Source of the DNA: Paraburkholderia flagellata
GTDB lineage: Bacteria > Pseudomonadota > Gammaproteobacteria > Burkholderiales > Burkholderiaceae
Length of the DNA: 64,000 nucleotides
Direction of reading: 5' to 3'
NCBI RefSeq assembly: GCF_021390645.1
Contig: NZ_JAJEJT010000004.1
Span: 744,001 to 808,000 of the forward strand
Below, piece after piece: positions 5,890 through 11,848 of this stretch. The notes beneath the pieces were generated by a model. That model did no database searches, was not told the DNA's origin, and saw only the letters and a list, made by a program, of their open reading frames with translations. Position 1 is the first letter of the stretch; the number at the start of each line of letters is the position of its first letter. The position numbers were made by a program, and so were the translations under genes.

Positions 5890-6177
5890 ATGCCGACACA
5901 GCCGCTTCTTCTCTACAAGGGGTATGAACTTCATCCCCTCGTCTTTGCCCGCACGTTCAACCGCTTCGACGGACATTCCCGTTACGCCGAAGGGTATGAC
6001 ATTGCGGTCCGCATATCTCGCCCTGGGGCGATAGCAGCCTCAGACGCAAGCCGTGTTTTCAGGCTGGACCAACTGCACGCGCTCTGCGACTTCGGCACGG
6101 CAAGGCGTGCCGCCTGCCAGGGTGGGAAGGACATCATCGACGGGAAGGTGAGCGGGGCTTCGGTCGCGGATATTTGA
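5890..6177 (+). CDS. Small protein, divergent member of the YRGLEIYPLV family (copy A0)
   Basis: 95 aa, ATG at 5890 with GGAG at 5877-5880 (an upstream in-frame GTG at 5881 is too close to that site). It begins MPTQPLLLYKGYELHPLVF and contains YAEGYDIAVRI and ASRVFRLD. These blocks align with the three closer copies at 7487-7777, 9879-10169 and 10951-11250 (YRGLEIYPLVYPH, GFDAAVRI, RSRVF). No signal peptide or membrane helix. Function unknown; predicted as a small alpha/beta protein with a C-terminal Ala-rich helix. Confidence 0.7.
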   Translation: MPTQPLLLYKGYELHPLVFARTFNRFDGHSRYAEGYDIAVRISRPGAIAASDASRVFRLDQLHALCDFGTARRAACQGGKDIIDGKVSGASVADI

Positions 6178-6386
6178 AAGCGCTGCTGATGTGGACATGC
6201 GCTGATTTTGTCGAGTAGCGAGTTGCTCGCTCGTTGATGACCGATTCGTCTGTCGTTGCTTCAAAAAATGGTCACCGGCAGAGTGCATCCTTCGGGGCAT
6301 TGTTGCCCGTTCGTCCAGACTCATCGGTTGGCCGCAGCGGCGCGCGAAACTGAGCGCCTCCATTCTTCCGAACTGGTACCGCCTCC

Positions 6387-6671
6387 ATGCAAAGTAATCG
6401 CGACGCGATTCCGCATTACCTCGTTATACGCGCTGGCTGTGCACCGTATGTTCTGAACGCTGAGCGCCATGTGCTGCGCCGCGAGGCAAGCCTTCTCCTG
6501 CGAGCGTTCGCGAGAGCCCGCAGCGCGCCGACCTCAATCGCGGACGACGCGTGGAACGACTTTTCGGGCCTGGAATCTGTTTCGATCCTTGAGCGCATGG
6601 ACGTGCGCGCCTACGCACTGGTTCAAGGGGCTGAAAGCGAACACCAGCTCCGTCTGTTGTCAGCGCTCTGA
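6387..6671 (+). CDS. Hypothetical protein, 94 aa
   Basis: Open frame with codon use like real genes of this genome, starting MQSNRDAIPHYLVIRAG and ending EHQLRLLSAL. It has an Arg-rich helix-prone middle and an acidic C-terminal half. No clear Shine-Dalgarno precedes the ATG, which lowers confidence. It lies between the small-protein gene at 5890 and rpsU and has no recognisable domain. Confidence 0.4.
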   Translation: MQSNRDAIPHYLVIRAGCAPYVLNAERHVLRREASLLLRAFARARSAPTSIADDAWNDFSGLESVSILERMDVRAYALVQGAESEHQLRLLSAL

Positions 6672-6720
6672 CTGCCTCAACGCCCGCATACTTTGCGGGC
6701 GGCGGGCCCACCCACAAGCG

Positions 6721-6933
6721 TCAGTACTGCTTTCTGGGCGGCAATGACCGCTTGATCTGTTTGCGCAGTCGGGCCACAGCTGCCGCCTTTTTTCTCTTGC
6801 GCTCAGCAGTCGGTTTTTCATAAGCCGTCCTGGCGCGCAGTTCCTTGATCAGGCCGGTGGTCTCGATCGCACGGCGAAAGCGGCGCAACGCGACTTCCAG
6901 AGGTTCATTCAGCTTGGGGATTACAGTAGTCAA
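6721..6933 (-). CDS. rpsU: 30S ribosomal protein S21 (extra copy)
   Basis: 70 aa with the whole S21 signature: [33 protein letters not shown], followed by the basic tail [19 protein letters not shown]. The start codon is TTG, preceded by AGGA at a spacing of 7 nt. S21 sits on the 30S platform and promotes initiation by base-pairing of mRNA with the anti-Shine-Dalgarno. Burkholderia genomes usually have more than one rpsU. This copy is alone rather than beside dnaG/rpoD-type neighbours, though a sigma-70 paralogue is 1 kb away and an IF-1 gene 1.2 kb away. Confidence 0.93.
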
Positions 6934-7017
6934 TTCTTTTCCTGGTTGTGAGTTCGTGCAGTTAATCGTGCAAACGGTCGTGGAGGTGCATGCATCGCAT
7001 GATGCTCGCGCGCCTCG

Positions 7018-7233
7018 TCAGCCAAACCGCGCGTCCAGCCATTCCCGCGCCCAGTTCTTCGCGCAGGCAATCGCATCGTCGCGTACGTCGAAGGCAGCCA
7101 GATCACCGCTCAGATGAACGTCATCTGCGCTGCCGTCTGCGCGGCTGCAACTGATGCGGGCATGAGCCATATACTCGCCGTCGGCCCGACGCGGGGTGGG
7201 GTCAATGAGGAACCGCGTTGAATTAAAGTGCAT
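7018..7233 (-). CDS. Small protein of cassette family C (copy C')
   Basis: 71 aa, MHFNSTRFLIDPTPRRADGE..., ending AREWLDARFG. It is a close paralogue of 11633-11848, sharing STRF-IDPTPRRADGEYMAH, a SGDLA-F block and a C-terminal helix D(A)IA-AK-WA--WLD-RFG. The ribosome-binding site (GAGAAAG) is weak. It is the last gene of a minus-strand cassette A'-B'-C' that mirrors the plus-strand cassette at 10951-11848. Function unknown. Confidence 0.7.
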   Translation of the reverse strand: MHFNSTRFLIDPTPRRADGEYMAHARISCSRADGSADDVHLSGDLAAFDVRDDAIACAKNWAREWLDARFG

Positions 7234-7300
7234 TGCTTTCTCGTGTGATTACCGCGCGGCCGGGAGTGTGGTGGAGCACCGTTGGGGACGACAGGCCCTG

Positions 7301-7454
7301 TTACGCGTTCAGAAGGGCCATCACATGGGCCGGCCTCGTAGTCCGACTCGCAGCCCGGCATCCCGCCGTTGCGCAGCAGAGCGCGGATCGACATGAACAT
7401 CAGCCACGCATGCGCGTCGACCTCGCTATGGCCGTCGCCGATGACGCTATCCAA
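7301..7454 (-). pseudogene. Remnant of cassette gene B (N-terminus lost, frameshifted)
   Basis: Between A' and C' the minus strand encodes LDSVIGDGHSEVDAHAW, then LMFMSIRALL and GMPGCESDYEAG, which match residues about 31-70 of the intact B protein at 11324-11572 (EVDAEAFLMFVSVRAML, GMPSCESDCEAG). There is no counterpart of the first 30 residues. An extra base after GAGGCCGG shifts the frame; correcting it restores an ending VMALLNA and a stop at 7301-7303, matching the IMALLNRA ending of the intact gene. So this is a decayed copy. Confidence 0.65.
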
Positions 7455-7486
7455 TATGCCCGTGGGCCACGACGCTGAACTGCAAA

Positions 7487-7777
7487 TCACGGCTGCAAAT
7501 CGAGCACACTCGTGTTCTCTGGACATGTGTCGATGAGGCGCACGGCATATGCAGTCGATGCCCGGCGTGCGTCGCCGGCGTTCTGGAAGGGTGTTCCCTG
7601 AGCAAGCCTGAATACACGGCTGCGCGACGTCCCCTCTGAACTTTCCGGCTCCTGAATACGCACGGCAGCATCGAAACCATCTTCGTAGTTGCGCCCGCCC
7701 GTCGCCCTGGTGGGACGATGCGGATAGACCAGCGGGTAAATTTCGAGCCCACGGTAGAGACGGAAACCTGTTGTCAT
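7487..7777 (-). CDS. Small protein of the YRGLEIYPLV family (copy A')
   Basis: 96 aa from ATG at 7777: MTTGFRLYRGLEIYPLVYPH, then GRNYEDGFDAAVRIQEP, SRSRVFRLA, PFQNAGDARRAS and a C-terminal LIDTCPENTSVLDLQP. Same length and motif order as 9879-10169. Soluble, with no signal peptide. It heads the inverted cassette A'-B'-C'. Its upstream region carries the conserved block described at 7960-7998. Function unknown. Confidence 0.8.
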   Translation of the reverse strand: MTTGFRLYRGLEIYPLVYPHRPTRATGGRNYEDGFDAAVRIQEPESSEGTSRSRVFRLAQGTPFQNAGDARRASTAYAVRLIDTCPENTSVLDLQP

Positions 7778-8102
7778 GGATTGCCTTTGCGGCCGCATGA
7801 CTACGCGGCGAATTGGGAGGGAGTGCGAGCGACTGATTCCAGTCTCTACACGGGTGGCCGCGGCGGTTCGGCCTGCGAAGAAAGTGAGCGGTCCGAATCC
7901 CACTGGCAAGGCGACTGGGGGGGGGCGCCGGGAACGGCCGTGGAGCGATTAGCGCCTTCATGCTACGCCTATTGAAGCCTTTGTACAGCTAAAGTTCTTT
8001 GACGCTCTTCCCGGTCGCGAGGCGCGTGAGGCCAATCGACGACGGCCATGCGCCTGGCGCGATGCCGGCGACGAGCCGCAGCCTGCATCCGCGCCCGACA
8101 GG
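7778..8102. other. Leader region of copy A' and downstream of infA
   Basis: No gene seen. On the minus strand it holds the upstream block at 7960-7998 and the 180-nt leader of A', which contains a run of nine G (7917-7925 on the plus strand). The rest is the 3' flank of infA. Confidence 0.5.
7960..7998 (-). promoter_or_regulatory. Conserved upstream block of copy A'
   Basis: Minus strand reads AGAACTTTAGCTGTACAAAG... then ...GGCGTAGCATGA. TGTACA (7982-7987) and TAGCAT (7960-7965) are 16 bp apart, as in the other two copies (9661-9701 and 10728-10767). It lies 183 nt before the A' start codon. It could be a -35/-10 pair or the start of a leader peptide; the sequence alone does not decide. Confidence 0.55.
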
Positions 8103-8369
8103 TCAACGACGGCGGAACGCAGGCCTTTGCGATGCGCCGCCGCTGCGCTCGTCCTTGTGCCGAAAGTTGATTCTTCCTTTCGTGAGGTCGTACACCGAGA
8201 GTTCCAGCGTGACTCGGTCTCCGGCAAGGATGCGGATGTGATTCTTGCGGATACGTCCGGACGCATACGCACCCACCACGACGCCATTGTCGAGCGTGAC
8301 ACGGTAGCGGCTGTCCGGCAGCACTTCCTCAACGATACCGTCGAGTTCCAGCAGTTCTTCTTTCGCCAT
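8103..8369 (-). CDS. infA: Translation initiation factor IF-1 (extra copy)
   Basis: 88 aa. Residues 1-72 form the S1-like OB fold: [54 protein letters not shown]. After that comes an Arg-rich tail of about 16 residues absent from E. coli IF-1 (72 aa) but common in the second IF-1 of Burkholderiales. IF-1 binds the ribosomal A site during initiation. It is not in a ribosomal protein operon, so this is presumably the accessory copy. AGGA lies about 9 nt before the ATG. Confidence 0.93.
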
Positions 8370-8942
8370 TCAAGGGTCCTGGTTAATTCGCCGGGCGTCG
8401 ATACGCGACACCTCGACGAGGAGCAAGCCACGAGCGTTGACAGACGCTCAGCGAGCGATGGTGAGTAGCGCGCGGGCGGATGAGCGGCCTCGCGTGGGAA
8501 ATGTCATGGCCGTCGCCCTGTCCGGGCGGCGAGTCCAGCAGATGAATGGATGAGTCTGATGCGGGGGCCAGCTGTGCCAGACCTATCAGAATCAGGGCAC
8601 GTCCAACGGATTTTGTTGTCGCCGGCCTCACCTGGCGATCAGTCGGAGGGGGATTCGCAATGAGCCAACGGAGATCTTGTTGCGCGAGGTACAGGGCGAA
8701 TCAAGCCTCTATTGTAACCGAAGACGGCCATCTCCAGGACCAGCGTTTAAATGGGACAGAATGATGCACCTTGGCGGCAAGACCGCCGCAAGCTGCAATA
8801 ACCGGAAATCCAGCGTTGCGCGGCGACTGCGCCGATGCGATATCAGCGTTCGAAGACGATCTCGAACCCGCGATATTCAATCATCCGATACACACTTTTC
8901 GCCGCCCGGTAGTTGGTGCAGTGCTGGATGCCATCACGAGTA
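8370..8942. other. Intergenic region without a supported gene
   Basis: The 573 bp upstream of infA have no convincing reading frame. One 34-codon frame from 8660 has a purine-rich GGAGGGGGA sequence before its ATG, but its product is short and unlike anything I know. The region probably holds the infA promoter on the minus strand. Confidence 0.4.
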
Positions 8943-9170
8943 TCAACGCATCCCAGGGAAGCCTTCGCTGCGAACTCCGGCCCGATAGAGCACAGCGCCG
9001 ATCTGCAGGAGGCCGTTCCAGTCGTTCACGTTCATCGCGCTATGCTCGCGGGCAAGGTATTCGGTCAGCCAGGTCAGTGAATCACCTGCGCTTGTCTGGT
9101 CGAGGCCCTTCTGCGCGATGTCCTTGAACATATCGAGAATCGCCTCCACGTTGATGTATGGCTTGTTCAT
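8943..9170 (-). CDS. Conserved small hypothetical protein, 75 aa
   Basis: Starts MNKPYINVEAILDMFKDIAQKG with a strong GAGGAG 6 nt before the ATG. Predicted mainly helical, with an amphipathic N-terminal helix and a second one in WNGLLQIGAVLYRAGV. No signal peptide. The helix pattern ending in a Gly-rich turn recalls the second half of cassette gene B, but the similarity is too weak to call homology. Function unknown. Confidence 0.7.
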   Translation of the reverse strand: MNKPYINVEAILDMFKDIAQKGLDQTSAGDSLTWLTEYLAREHSAMNVNDWNGLLQIGAVLYRAGVRSEGFPGMR

Positions 9171-9660
9171 TGCAATCTCCTCATGGTTCCAGGGTGAATA
9201 CGCCGCTCAAACTGTCATTGGAGCGCACCGGCACTTCTTCGATTTCCCGAAAGGAATCCTGGGCGGTTCAGGGCCGTAAAGTTCTGAACTACTGGCGACA
9301 TGCACCAGCGCACTAGCGTTCGAGACGCTCAGGATCGCGAAGAAGCGCGTTGTCCCGGTCAGGCAGACAAAACGGCACTACAGCCGCAAGCATCTCGGGA
9401 GCCGGCCTCAGCAAAGACCGAAGGAGGGCGGGAGAGGAGGGTTTCAGAGCACGCGGTCGACGACAAAACGCTATCAAACAGTAACGCAAACCAGGCTACG
9501 CTTTGCCAACCAGGCCGTCAAGCCGCCTCGGTCGCCCGGTAGCACTTTGCGCCGTCGCTGAACCGGAGCAAGGCAAGGGGGCAACCCTCCGCAGTTTGAA
9601 GACCCCACTGCCTGCCACCGGCAGACATCATGAAACCGACAGCGCGCAGGCTGCAAGTCT
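9171..9660. other. Intergenic region without a supported gene
   Basis: An 80-codon frame (9300-9542) exists, but it lacks a ribosome-binding site and has a low-complexity charged product, so I do not annotate it. The only clear element in this gap is the conserved block that follows at 9661. Confidence 0.4.
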
Positions 9661-9701
9661 GAAACTTTCGCTGTACAAACGGCTGAAGGGGCGTAGCATG
9701 A
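9661..9701 (+). promoter_or_regulatory. Conserved upstream block of copy A''
   Basis: GAAACTTTCGCTGTACAAA then GGCGTAGCATGA. TGTACA is at 9672-9677 and TAGCAT at 9694-9699, a spacing of 16 bp. It lies 180 nt before the start codon at 9879. The leader contains a hairpin with CGATCCC (9723-9729) and GGGATCG (9755-9761). An ATG overlapping the block opens a 41-codon frame, so a leader peptide is an alternative reading. Confidence 0.55.
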
Positions 9702-9878
9702 AAAGGTTAGTCGACCTGCGACCGATCCCAGGCCGCCCCCTGCACCGTTCACCAGGGATCGAGACGCTCCCCGCCATCGCAGACCACGCAACGCGATCGA
9801 CCGCCGTTCAGATGTCGAGGTGATCGCGCGCATTCTTGTACGCTTTTGCCGCAAAGCATGTGGCCAGAAGGTGACTTC

Positions 9879-10169
9879 ATGACTGTCGCTGTCCGTTTCT
9901 ACCGTGGACTCGAAATTTGTCCTCTGGTTTATCCGCACCGACCAACCGCCGCCGGATTCGGCCATAACTACGACGAGGGGTTTGACGCCGCCGTACGAAT
10001 CCTGGAGCCGCAGGAGCCCGACGGCACTCAACGTAGCCGGGTGTTCGGTGTCGTAGCCAGCAGGCCGTTCATCAATTCGGGGGATGCGCGTCGTGCATCG
10101 ATCGAATATGCAGAGCGCCTCATCGATACCTGTTCACCGGGCGCGACTTTCCTCGATATGAAGTCCTGA
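9879..10169 (+). CDS. Small protein of the YRGLEIYPLV family (copy A'')
   Basis: 96 aa: MTVAVRFYRGLEICPLVYPH, then GFGHNYDEGFDAAVRI, RSRVFGV, PFINSGDARRAS and LIDTCSPGATFLDMKS. AAGGTG precedes the ATG by about 6 nt. It is most similar to 10951-11250, sharing GFGHNYDEGFDAAVRI and the LDMKS end. Followed by the truncated gene B'' and gene D. Function unknown; no membrane segment. Confidence 0.8.
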   Translation: MTVAVRFYRGLEICPLVYPHRPTAAGFGHNYDEGFDAAVRILEPQEPDGTQRSRVFGVVASRPFINSGDARRASIEYAERLIDTCSPGATFLDMKS

Positions 10170-10195
10170 ACGTTTCTCTCGCCACAAGATTCGGT

Positions 10196-10312
10196 ATGTT
10201 CAGACGCGATCTGCTCGAACGCATTCGGGTTGGCAGACGCGACATCGTCGATGAGTTTCTATCCTCGGATGCGAACGCGCTCCCGAAAAGTGCAAACGTT
10301 TGGTTAACCTGA
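10196..10312 (+). pseudogene. Truncated copy of cassette gene B (B'', N-terminal part only)
   Basis: A 38-codon frame MFRRDLLERIRVGRRDIVDEF, then LSSDANALPKSANVWLT and a stop. Its first 28 residues match the N-terminus of intact B at 11324 (MNRRDWLKRIRVNGLDVVDEF, LPSDANAE). The match ends abruptly and the helical C-terminal half is missing. It lies directly after A'', where B follows A in the complete cassette. It could still be translated as a short peptide. Confidence 0.6.
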
Positions 10313-10339
10313 TTCACGACTCATTTTCGCAGGGCTTCC

Positions 10340-10579
10340 ATGCATCAAGTTTTCACGTATCGCGGTTTTGAAATTCACGTGACGCTGACGGAGGCTTCTC
10401 CGGGCCTGTACGACGCGGTTTTTCAGATCAAGGGCGGTGTCAATGTCGGTGTGATAGATGAACTTGGCGCTGAAACCAAGCTTCGTAAAGGGCCTTTTAG
10501 TCCGCAAAAGGCGTTTCTAAGCGCACAGCAGGCCGGTCAAACGGCTATCGATGCGGTTATTGGCGACGACGAGTCGTAA
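10340..10579 (+). CDS. Small protein D, 79 aa, distant relative of the A family
   Basis: MHQVFTYRGFEIHVTLTEA, then LYDAVFQIKGG and a C-terminal helix FLSAQQAGQTAIDAVIGDDES. The order Y-R-G-x-E-I, then YDAxxxI, then PF...A..A...A...AID resembles the A proteins (YRGLEI, FDAAVRI, PF..A.DARRA...YAE.LID), suggesting a shared fold. It occupies the third position of the second cassette, where C stands in the others. Weak ribosome-binding site (AGGG). Function unknown. Confidence 0.65.
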   Translation: MHQVFTYRGFEIHVTLTEASPGLYDAVFQIKGGVNVGVIDELGAETKLRKGPFSPQKAFLSAQQAGQTAIDAVIGDDES

Positions 10580-10727
10580 AACCATCGGCATTTTCTTTGA
10601 AAAGGCGAACACGAGAGTTCAGGACACTGCAACCCCGGTGCGAGGTTTCGTCTTGTTGACCGGCACGCAAAAGCGTTTTTTGCCGGCGATGATGCGACGC
10701 AAGCGAAGAATGATGAGAATACGGGCC

Positions 10728-10767
10728 GAAACTCTCGCTGTACAAAAGGTGGATTAGGCGTAGGATG
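10728..10767 (+). promoter_or_regulatory. Conserved upstream block of copy A'''
   Basis: GAAACTCTCGCTGTACAAAA then GGCGTAGGATGA. TGTACA is at 10739-10744 and TAGGAT at 10761-10766, again 16 bp apart. It lies 185 nt before the start codon at 10951. The leader holds a hairpin TCGATCCC (10789-10796) / GGGATCGA (10824-10831), equivalent to the one before A''. The ATG in this block gives only a 7-codon frame. Confidence 0.55.
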
Positions 10768-10950
10768 AGAAGACCAGTCAACCTGTGATCGATCCCAGCG
10801 CCTCTCCTGCAGCCTTTTCTACAGGGATCGAGCTGCCACCCCTCCAGCGCAGACCACTTTACGCGGCCGACCTCGCGGCACAACGCCGGTGCGGTTGCGT
10901 ACGTCCATATCCCGTACTGCCGCAACGCTTGTGGCTCGAGGAGTAACGCT

Positions 10951-11250
10951 ATGTCCGTCGCTTTCCGTCTTTACCGCGGACTGGAAATCTATCCGCTGGT
11001 GTATCCGCATTGCCCGACTGAGCCCGGCTTCGGGCACAACTATGACGAAGGGTTTGATGCAGCCGTCCGGATTCAGGAATGTCCGGAGATGCAGGAGCCG
11101 GGAGGTCAGCTGCGCAGCCGCGTATTTGGGCTCGCGGTTCGCACGCCGTTCATGAATGCGGGTGACGCGCGCCGCGCATCGGTGGCTTATGCCGAACATC
11201 TGATCGACACATGTGCGCCGAACCAGACCGTTCTTGATATGAAATCCTGA
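10951..11250 (+). CDS. Small protein of the YRGLEIYPLV family (copy A''')
   Basis: 99 aa: MSVAFRLYRGLEIYPLVYPH, then GFGHNYDEGFDAAVRIQE, RSRVFGLAV, PFMNAGDARRAS and LIDTCAPNQTVLDMKS. GAGGAG is 7 nt before the ATG. This is the first gene of the only complete A-B-C cassette. Spacings to B (73 nt) and C (60 nt) and the strong ribosome-binding sites fit an operon. Function unknown. Confidence 0.82.
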   Translation: MSVAFRLYRGLEIYPLVYPHCPTEPGFGHNYDEGFDAAVRIQECPEMQEPGGQLRSRVFGLAVRTPFMNAGDARRASVAYAEHLIDTCAPNQTVLDMKS

Positions 11251-11323
11251 ATATTTTTCTGCGGTTACCGATGCGGCGATACACGTTGGGCCAAACGGTC
11301 ACCGGTATCACTGGAGCGAAGGC

Positions 11324-11572
11324 ATGAACAGACGTGACTGGCTTAAACGGATCAGAGTCAACGGTCTTGACGTCGTCGACGAATTTCTTCCATCGGATGC
11401 CAACGCGGAGCTGAAAGGCCTGATCGATGACCGTCGGCACGAGGTCGACGCGGAGGCATTCCTGATGTTCGTGTCAGTTCGTGCAATGTTGCACGGAAGC
11501 GGCATGCCGAGTTGCGAGTCGGACTGCGAGGCGGGGCAGATCATGGCCCTGCTGAACCGAGCTGCGGCTTGA
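11324..11572 (+). CDS. Small protein of cassette family B (intact copy)
   Basis: 82 aa: MNRRDWLKRIRVNGLDVVDEF, then AELKGLIDDRRHEVDAEAF, LMFVSVRAMLHGSGMPSCES and LLNRAAA. GGAG lies upstream of the ATG. The basic N-terminus and helix-rich C-terminal half with two Cys (PSCESDCE) distinguish it from A and C. Two damaged relatives lie at 7301-7454 (C-terminal half) and 10196-10312 (N-terminal part). Function unknown. Confidence 0.75.
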   Translation: MNRRDWLKRIRVNGLDVVDEFLPSDANAELKGLIDDRRHEVDAEAFLMFVSVRAMLHGSGMPSCESDCEAGQIMALLNRAAA

Positions 11573-11632
11573 GGTTGATGAAGCAGCAATCAGCGGCAAA
11601 TGGATGTCGCACGTAATTGGTGAGGTGAGAAC

Positions 11633-11848
11633 ATGCGTTCCGATTCGACCCGATTCCGGATTGACCCGACACCGCGGCGGGCCGACGGGGAATACATGGC
11701 GCACGTGCGCATCAGTGGCAGTCGTGCGGATGGCAGCGAGTACGACGTTCACTCGAGCGGTGATCTTGCAGGATTCGAAGCGCGTGAGGATGCGATTGCC
11801 TACGCGAAATGCTGGGCGCAACAATGGCTGGATGTGCGCTTCGGCTAG
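11633..11848 (+). CDS. Small protein of cassette family C (intact copy)
   Basis: 71 aa: MRSDSTRFRIDPTPRRADGE, then HVRISGSRADGS, SSGDLAGFEAREDAIAYAK and WLDVRFG. GAGGTGAG precedes the ATG. Close paralogue of 7018-7233. Short beta-strands followed by an Ala-rich C-terminal helix give it an architecture like the A and D proteins. Last gene of the complete cassette; a hairpin follows at 11901-11930. Confidence 0.78.
   Translation: MRSDSTRFRIDPTPRRADGEYMAHVRISGSRADGSEYDVHSSGDLAGFEAREDAIAYAKCWAQQWLDVRFG

Follow-up and report, generated by a model that had tools for sequence, protein, structure and literature searches.

The described protein closest to those reported here is CV_2116 of Chromobacterium violaceum (PDB 2KON), whose structure was solved by nuclear magnetic resonance in 2012 and which is located in a prophage (PMC3397530). 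No function for CV_2116 was found in the literature searched. Accessory translation paralogues are already known as a general idea, and in an intracellular pathogen a homologue of bS21 is reported to alter gene expression (PMC9578407). Here we describe an island of small genes in Paraburkholderia flagellata. The window analyzed is a stretch of 64,000 nucleotides (nt) (G000:C4:744001-808000) in a genome of 9.0 Mb and six contigs, which is called the own genome below and was counted among the 97 genomes of the genus. The island contains copies of four small-protein families, A, B, C, and D, together with spare translation genes (Table 1). A-B-C is a conserved operon, linked beyond chance, and its context suggests an accessory of protein synthesis that is so far undescribed.

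The A-B-C operon and its copies

Linkage was counted with the 150 places listed for A in the 97 genomes and with close relatives of C, C places below ~58% identity being left out. Among 26 places with an intact B gene, at least 24 had A within 2 kb (median gap 82 nt), at least 22 had A upstream on the same strand, and at least 23 had C downstream within 2 kb (median gap 71 nt). A accompanied at least 46 of the 54 close C places. An alternative arrangement, A-C without B, was common in Caballeronia and was also found in some Paraburkholderia loci. In 20 complete cassettes of the fetched loci, protein distances correlated between A and B (0.39), A and C (0.34), and B and C (0.68); at most 3 of 2000 permutations reached the same height, but shared host ancestry alone could also explain these correlations.

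Selection was estimated from the ratio of nonsynonymous to synonymous divergence (dN/dS). Frames with stops or outside the length limits were left out, and medians were taken over pairs with a usable proportion of synonymous differences (pS). The median dN/dS was 0.21 for A (450 of 1830 pairs), 0.16 for the A1 subfamily (30 of 66), 0.24 for B (263 of 435), 0.15 for C (254 of 1378), 0.19 for D (31 of 171), and 0.23 for c7, a further CV_2116-like protein (140 of 465). In every family, at least 99.4% of the pairs had a proportion of nonsynonymous differences (pN) below pS, so every family tested is under purifying selection. Among the matches listed, A, B, and C are thus linked in relatives (24/26 and 23/26) rather than scattered, and their frames are conserved. 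The B gene of locus L207, which has an internal stop, was omitted from the B alignment, and a C gene interrupted by a stop was observed at G046:C38:45612-45825, so that decay of C also occurs in relatives.

All frames named in an earlier, sequence-only reading of this island were present, and searches of the own genome returned the copy numbers it had claimed for the island: A is present four times, C twice, and D once, and B has one intact and two broken copies. The A4 protein gave four matches, all in the window (10951, 9879, 7493-, and 5908), and B gave one whole and two partial matches, which agrees with the decay of some copies that had been proposed. The C copies, matched at 11633+ and 7021-, share 75% identity. 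D has, besides the window copy, one distant copy (43%) ~9 kb upstream of the window. The start of A2 was placed at 7777, later than in the list of open reading frames (ORFs). The proposed common order also held, as both A-B-C and A3-B'-D (B' being a broken B) were present, and the first cassette is inverted, with the order infA-A-B'-C-rpsU on the minus strand.

Table 1. Features of the island and its left neighbor (positions within the window; aa, amino acids)
Feature	Position	Strand	Evidence
rpoD-like sigma factor paralogue (presumed), 661 aa	3759..5744	+	ORF; left neighbor of the island
A1, 95 aa, CV_2116-like, separate subfamily (KGYELHPLVF)	5890..6177	+	NF046097 E 5.2e-5; own tree clade of 12
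orf94, conserved small gene	6387..6671	+	no Pfam/NCBIfam match
rpsU paralogue (bS21)	6721..6933	-	Pfam Ribosomal_S21 2.7e-17
C copy 1, 71 aa	7018..7233	-	genome search, match at 7021-
Broken B remnant, residues 30-72, 58% identity	7326..7454	-	E 2.3e-10
A2, type I cassette, downstream of infA paralogue	7487..7777	-	genome search, tree
Promoter-like element upstream of A2	7960..7988	-	pattern search
infA paralogue (IF-1), 88 aa	8103..8369	-	Pfam eIF-1a 2.7e-20
orf75, conserved small gene	8943..9170	-	no Pfam match; 91% relative in L128
Promoter-like element upstream of A3	9671..9699	+	pattern search
A3, 96 aa	9879..10169	+	genome search
Broken B remnant, residues 1-31, 68% identity	10196..10288	+	E 8.1e-5
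D, 79 aa, intact frame	10340..10579	+	relatives in 41/97 genus genomes
Promoter-like element upstream of A4	10738..10766	+	pattern search
Small hairpin directly before A4 ribosome-binding site	10919..10935	+	counterpart aligned in A2, A3 leaders and relatives
A4, 99 aa, type II cassette	10951..11250	+	genome search, structure model
B intact, 82 aa, four helices predicted	11324..11572	+	genome search, AF2 model
C copy 2, 71 aa	11633..11848	+	genome search

Searches of the 97 genomes found A in 87 of them at E ≤ 1e-4; at E ≤ 1e-3, B was present in 25, C in 75, and D in 41. From 220 relatives, 79 loci were kept as named loci, picked by the similarity of A and not by their neighbors; they belong to Paraburkholderia, Burkholderia, Caballeronia, and Trinickia. 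When the A profile was run against 150 genomes of the order, with at most 34 candidates scored in each, three matched: the own genome, one from another genus of the family, and one weakly. In this sample the A family is confined almost wholly to the Burkholderia group. Two other small genes of the island, orf94 and orf75, recur near rpsU, A1, infA, or D in relatives, orf94 lying within 5 kb of A in 17 of the 79 named loci. Two small genes (clusters c49 and c50) also recurred as a pair within a few kb of cassettes in L006, L146, L152, and L154.

Synonymous divergence (dS) was 1.5-2.2 between the A copies of the window and 1.6 between the two C copies. These values are near saturation, indicating that the duplications are old. 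The A tree, built from 93 rows and 96 columns, left many forks unresolved. In it, A2 belonged to type I, together with copies from P. tagetis, P. hiiakae, P. mimosarum, P. silvatlantica, and P. heleia that are linked to infA. A3 and A4 belonged to type II, a group of 12 that also has copies from P. nodosa, P. tagetis, P. hiiakae, and P. silviterrae. In P. silviterrae, P. nodosa, and P. tagetis, copies of type II are linked to infA as well. A2 and A3 share 98% identity with proteins of P. tagetis, and A4 shares 83% with one of P. silviterrae. P. hiiakae has the same island and P. tagetis has part of it. The tree groups and the arrangement common to P. hiiakae suggest that the island is a combination of two cassette lineages and not a recent amplification.

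The number of copies and the divergence among them would fit diversification of an antigen-like kind, or of partners, driven by recombination among the copies, as the earlier reading suggested. This explanation is very improbable and was rejected on dN/dS: the medians lie at 0.15-0.24, pN stays below pS in nearly all pairs of each family, and the copies are old.

We also considered that the cassette could be a mobile or selfish element encoding small proteins, either derived from a phage or addiction-like, which spreads through recombination and then decays. The prophage location of CV_2116, the several copies with one inverted and B decayed, and the presence of two cassette lineages in one island would fit such an element, as would the finding of A on three IMG/VR contigs (L267, L268, and L269). 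Two of these contigs carry A, B, and C, and one carries A, rpsU, and C; they may be proviruses or flanking host DNA. However, A4 had no match in 50,697 phage records, and PADLOC matched none of eight proteins at E up to 1, that is, no known anti-phage defense was recognized among them. PHROGs gave no match for A, B, or D and a single match of unknown function for C, at 1e-3. The long purifying selection and the same island in P. hiiakae, with part of it in P. tagetis, also speak against a selfish cassette, which we regard as quite unlikely.

Families and predicted folds

A is a distant relative of CV_2116. The AF2 model of A has the order strand-strand-strand-strand-helix and, as a predicted structure, shows the CV_2116 fold. 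Against the CV_2116 domain model NF046097, A1 scored 23.3 bits, A4 12.8, and core-type A 28.7 (the best among the matches listed), all below the curated cut-off of 58. A1 matched A4 with 35% identity in the own-genome search (E 1.9e-5), and profiles of 12 A1-type and 18 A4-type proteins without a common row matched with a probability of 99.5% (E 3e-22); A1 is therefore a separate subfamily of the A family. In sequence searches of the PDB, A4 and D had no match, A1 and C matched only at E > 1, and the C profile had none; the A profile found 2kon at E 1.3, behind two other entries. A PUR/Whirly fold for A was dismissed, as its Foldseek rows, at ranks 30 and 50, were not significant.

C likely shares the fold of A. 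Nine of 26 C rows matched NF046097 (best E 0.0063), and the profiles of C and c7 matched with a probability of 94%, while direct comparison of the C and A profiles gave no match. C and the cold-shock-linked c7 are probably of the same kind as A. D matched the A profile weakly (hhalign probability 51%) and the A1 and c7 profiles less (10% and 0.5%), and only one of 17 D rows matched NF046097 (E 0.083), alongside chance-like matches to other families. The proposal that A, C, and D share beta-strands followed by a C-terminal helix was therefore upheld for A in the AF2 model, is likely for C despite the missing direct match, and is only marginal for D.

B is of another kind. None of its 30 rows matched NF046097, and its AF2 model is all-helical, four of the five models being much worse; the best Foldseek match of the model had an E of 3.5. 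A match of the B profile to a p53/S100A4 fusion in the PDB (E 0.006, half of the EF-hand region), with S100A4 itself at E 1.5, was probably due to chance and was set aside. In Pfam and NCBIfam, neither the B nor the C proteins of the window passed a curated cut-off. The isoelectric point has a median of 6.1 in ABC-type A and exceeds 9 in A1- and core-type A.

Spare translation genes and a promoter-like element

The island encodes an IF-1 paralogue (eIF-1a, 72.2 bits against a Pfam cut-off of 30.2), to which the other IF-1 of the own genome is 48% identical, and a bS21 paralogue (Ribosomal_S21, 62.6 bits against 27). An additional rpsU paralogue on another contig (G000:C3:374948-375157) is 89% identical to the window copy. 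Close relatives of the infA paralogue were found in all 97 genomes, at 111 places that include one fragment and one copy with stops. A lay within 2 kb at no fewer than 79 of these places, on the same strand upstream at 59 and downstream at 17, and on the opposite strand at 3. Of 33 places without a listed A within 1.5 kb, 20 were fetched: eight had the order csp-c7-infA-rpsU, seven csp-infA, and three a core-type A (one in pieces), one had csp, A1, and rpsU, and one only rpsU. Therefore, 12 of the 20 also have a CV_2116-like gene nearby.

Cold-shock (csp) genes lay within 5 kb of A in 41 of the 79 named loci, rpsU in 37, infA in 20, and rpoD-like genes in 10. At least one of csp, rpsU, and infA was that close in 58 of the 79, or in 50 of the 68 with full flanks. 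As an internal control, the density of infA around A was 114 per Mb in the first kilobase and dropped to 0 past 4 kb; that of rpsU dropped from 127 per Mb to 0 past 6 kb, and that of csp from 155 per Mb (1-2 kb) to 7 (6-9 kb). In 82 loci (the 79 named and the three from IMG/VR), c7 follows 33 of 45 csp places, and csp is upstream of 33 of 34 c7 places. c7 (e.g. L220:9971-10192) is on the same strand as csp, with 352-492 nt from start to start, and looks like its standing partner. The guess from the neighbors alone that translation genes matter here is supported by these counts, with A near at least 79 of the 111 infA-paralogue places.

The left neighbor of the island, which looks rpoD-like from its sequence, has relatives of 80-90% in 5 of 60 fetched cassette loci. 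In Caballeronia and relatives (L225, L234, L237, L239, L241, and L242), A, C, and an rpoD-like gene follow each other in this order on one strand, the sigma factor being 53-56% identical.

Upstream of 37 of 43 ABC-type A genes, TGTACA occurs 192-230 nt before the start, within an element of the consensus AACTTTCGCTGTACAAA-N6-AAtGGGCGTAGCATGA and fixed internal spacing. From its sequence, the element looks like a sigma-70-type promoter (TGTACA, 16 nt, TAGSAT). With up to two mismatches, the own genome has three sites, before A2, A3, and A4 (reversed control, one). With up to one mismatch, the 97 genomes have 56 sites in 39 genomes (reversed control, 2), 47 of which precede a listed A gene at a distance of 178-229 nt (median 209). 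Five others lie before B-C genes without a listed A, with a partial or diverged A at three of them (L128, L147, and L148), and one before a lone C. The remaining three, without a listed A, B, or C downstream, are at G075:C1:3737762, G082:C62:51119, and G074:C77:2325. In the named loci, the stretch from -150 to -260 lacked the strict pattern at all 15 A1, 10 core-type A, and 34 c7 genes. This distribution indicated that the element belongs to the cassettes. It is nearly private to ABC-type A genes and not universal among them: among the 63 closest A places of the genus, 46 have a site at one mismatch and 17 do not, and a relaxed pattern precedes 38 of the 84 places labelled A4 in the named loci, including distant ones. 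A genome-wide regulon was unsupported, as the only three sites of the own genome all precede A.

In the leaders, the small hairpin had 96.9% of 161 cells paired in 27 sequences, with weak covariation (one compensated cell); in its best fold, the A2 leader taken alone lacks this hairpin, and Rfam gave no match in the window at gathering scores. A structured leader RNA was rejected, since only this hairpin is conserved and folding energies are mostly ordinary (six leaders tested, z +0.6 to -2.4).

The near-fixed distance of the element before A, its near-confinement to the cassettes, and the conserved hairpin before the ribosome-binding site could mean that A or B binds DNA or RNA at its own element or leader, the translation neighbors being targets or bystanders. 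Structure searches recognized no known DNA-binding fold for A or B, and the ordinary folding energies do not favor such autoregulation, which we consider unlikely.

Our preferred reading, held tentatively, is that the cassettes represent a lineage-specific accessory operon, present in several copies, within a spare set of translation and RNA-handling genes (the IF-1 paralogue, the bS21 paralogue, CspA-like proteins, and sometimes a sigma-70 paralogue) and that the operon tunes initiation, most likely under stress. Translation initiation or mRNA handling is the best single reading because CV_2116-like proteins recur with IF-1, S21, and cold-shock paralogues and the next fold neighbors include RNA- and ribosome-binding domains. 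The targets of A and C may be the 30S subunit, its initiation factor, or structured mRNA, and both would tune initiation while the spare IF-1 and S21 are in use, most likely, judging from these partners, in cold or another stress. B, which is small, acidic, and predicted to be helical, would be their adaptor. Transcription of the operon probably starts at its own element ~209 nt upstream, which would give a long leader.

Several observations weigh against this proposal. In 18 of the 68 fully flanked loci, no csp, rpsU, or infA was found within 5 kb of A, and in the named loci the strict element was found before none of the infA (0/20), csp (0/45), and rpsU (0/41) genes. The near-neutral ABC-type A with acidic B and C speaks against simple RNA binding by the cassette, and no expression data for it were found in the literature and data listings searched. 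The first two of these would also fit hitchhiking, in which the cassettes sit in a stress-gene neighborhood and act in an unrelated process (envelope, metabolism), their position reflecting common regulation or history. However, the adjacency repeats in both gene orders, and different CV_2116-like proteins stand by infA and by csp; hitchhiking therefore seems rather doubtful to us.

A bolder form of the accessory-operon proposal is that CV_2116-fold micro-proteins are dedicated partners of OB-fold RNA-binding factors: A with the spare IF-1, c7 with CspA-like proteins, and C with A and often the spare S21. Jointly they would form an alternative initiation kit that remodels the 30S subunit under stress in Burkholderia-group bacteria, with A-B-C under its own nearly private promoter element. 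We put this forward as a speculation that is more likely wrong than right.

Comparison with known systems

Within the reach of our searches, neither the operon nor its element has been described. The view that no described system has these genes therefore stands for the operon but not for A, given its distant relation to CV_2116. In the literature searched, CV_2116 was mentioned by a single paper, and DUF6723, DUF6566, and NF046097 by none. The recurring link to spare IF-1, spare S21, and cold-shock genes gives the CV_2116 fold a testable hypothesis. If it is true, small accessory proteins would join the bacterial routes to specialized ribosomes.

A differs from CV_2116 in scoring far below the curated cut-off and in its setting, as CV_2116 sits among phage tail genes and A often stands beside translation genes. 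The dsRBD and RaiA/RF2 domain folds, which were among the next structural rows for the A model, resemble A in having strands and then a long helix, but the alpha-beta-beta-beta-alpha order of the dsRBD is not matched, since the A model is without the first helix. DUF6723 (Pfam PF20484) is a small family, a member of which directly follows core-type A in 9 named loci; it is a sequence family other than A, overlapping with it at E 0.1 only. Core-type A and DUF6723 form a separate two-gene unit there (L240, L247-L249, L251, L252, L254, L255, and L257). The bS21 homologue system is similar in that a spare rpsU recurs beside the cassettes; there the paralogue itself acts, whereas here extra small proteins accompany the spare rpsU.

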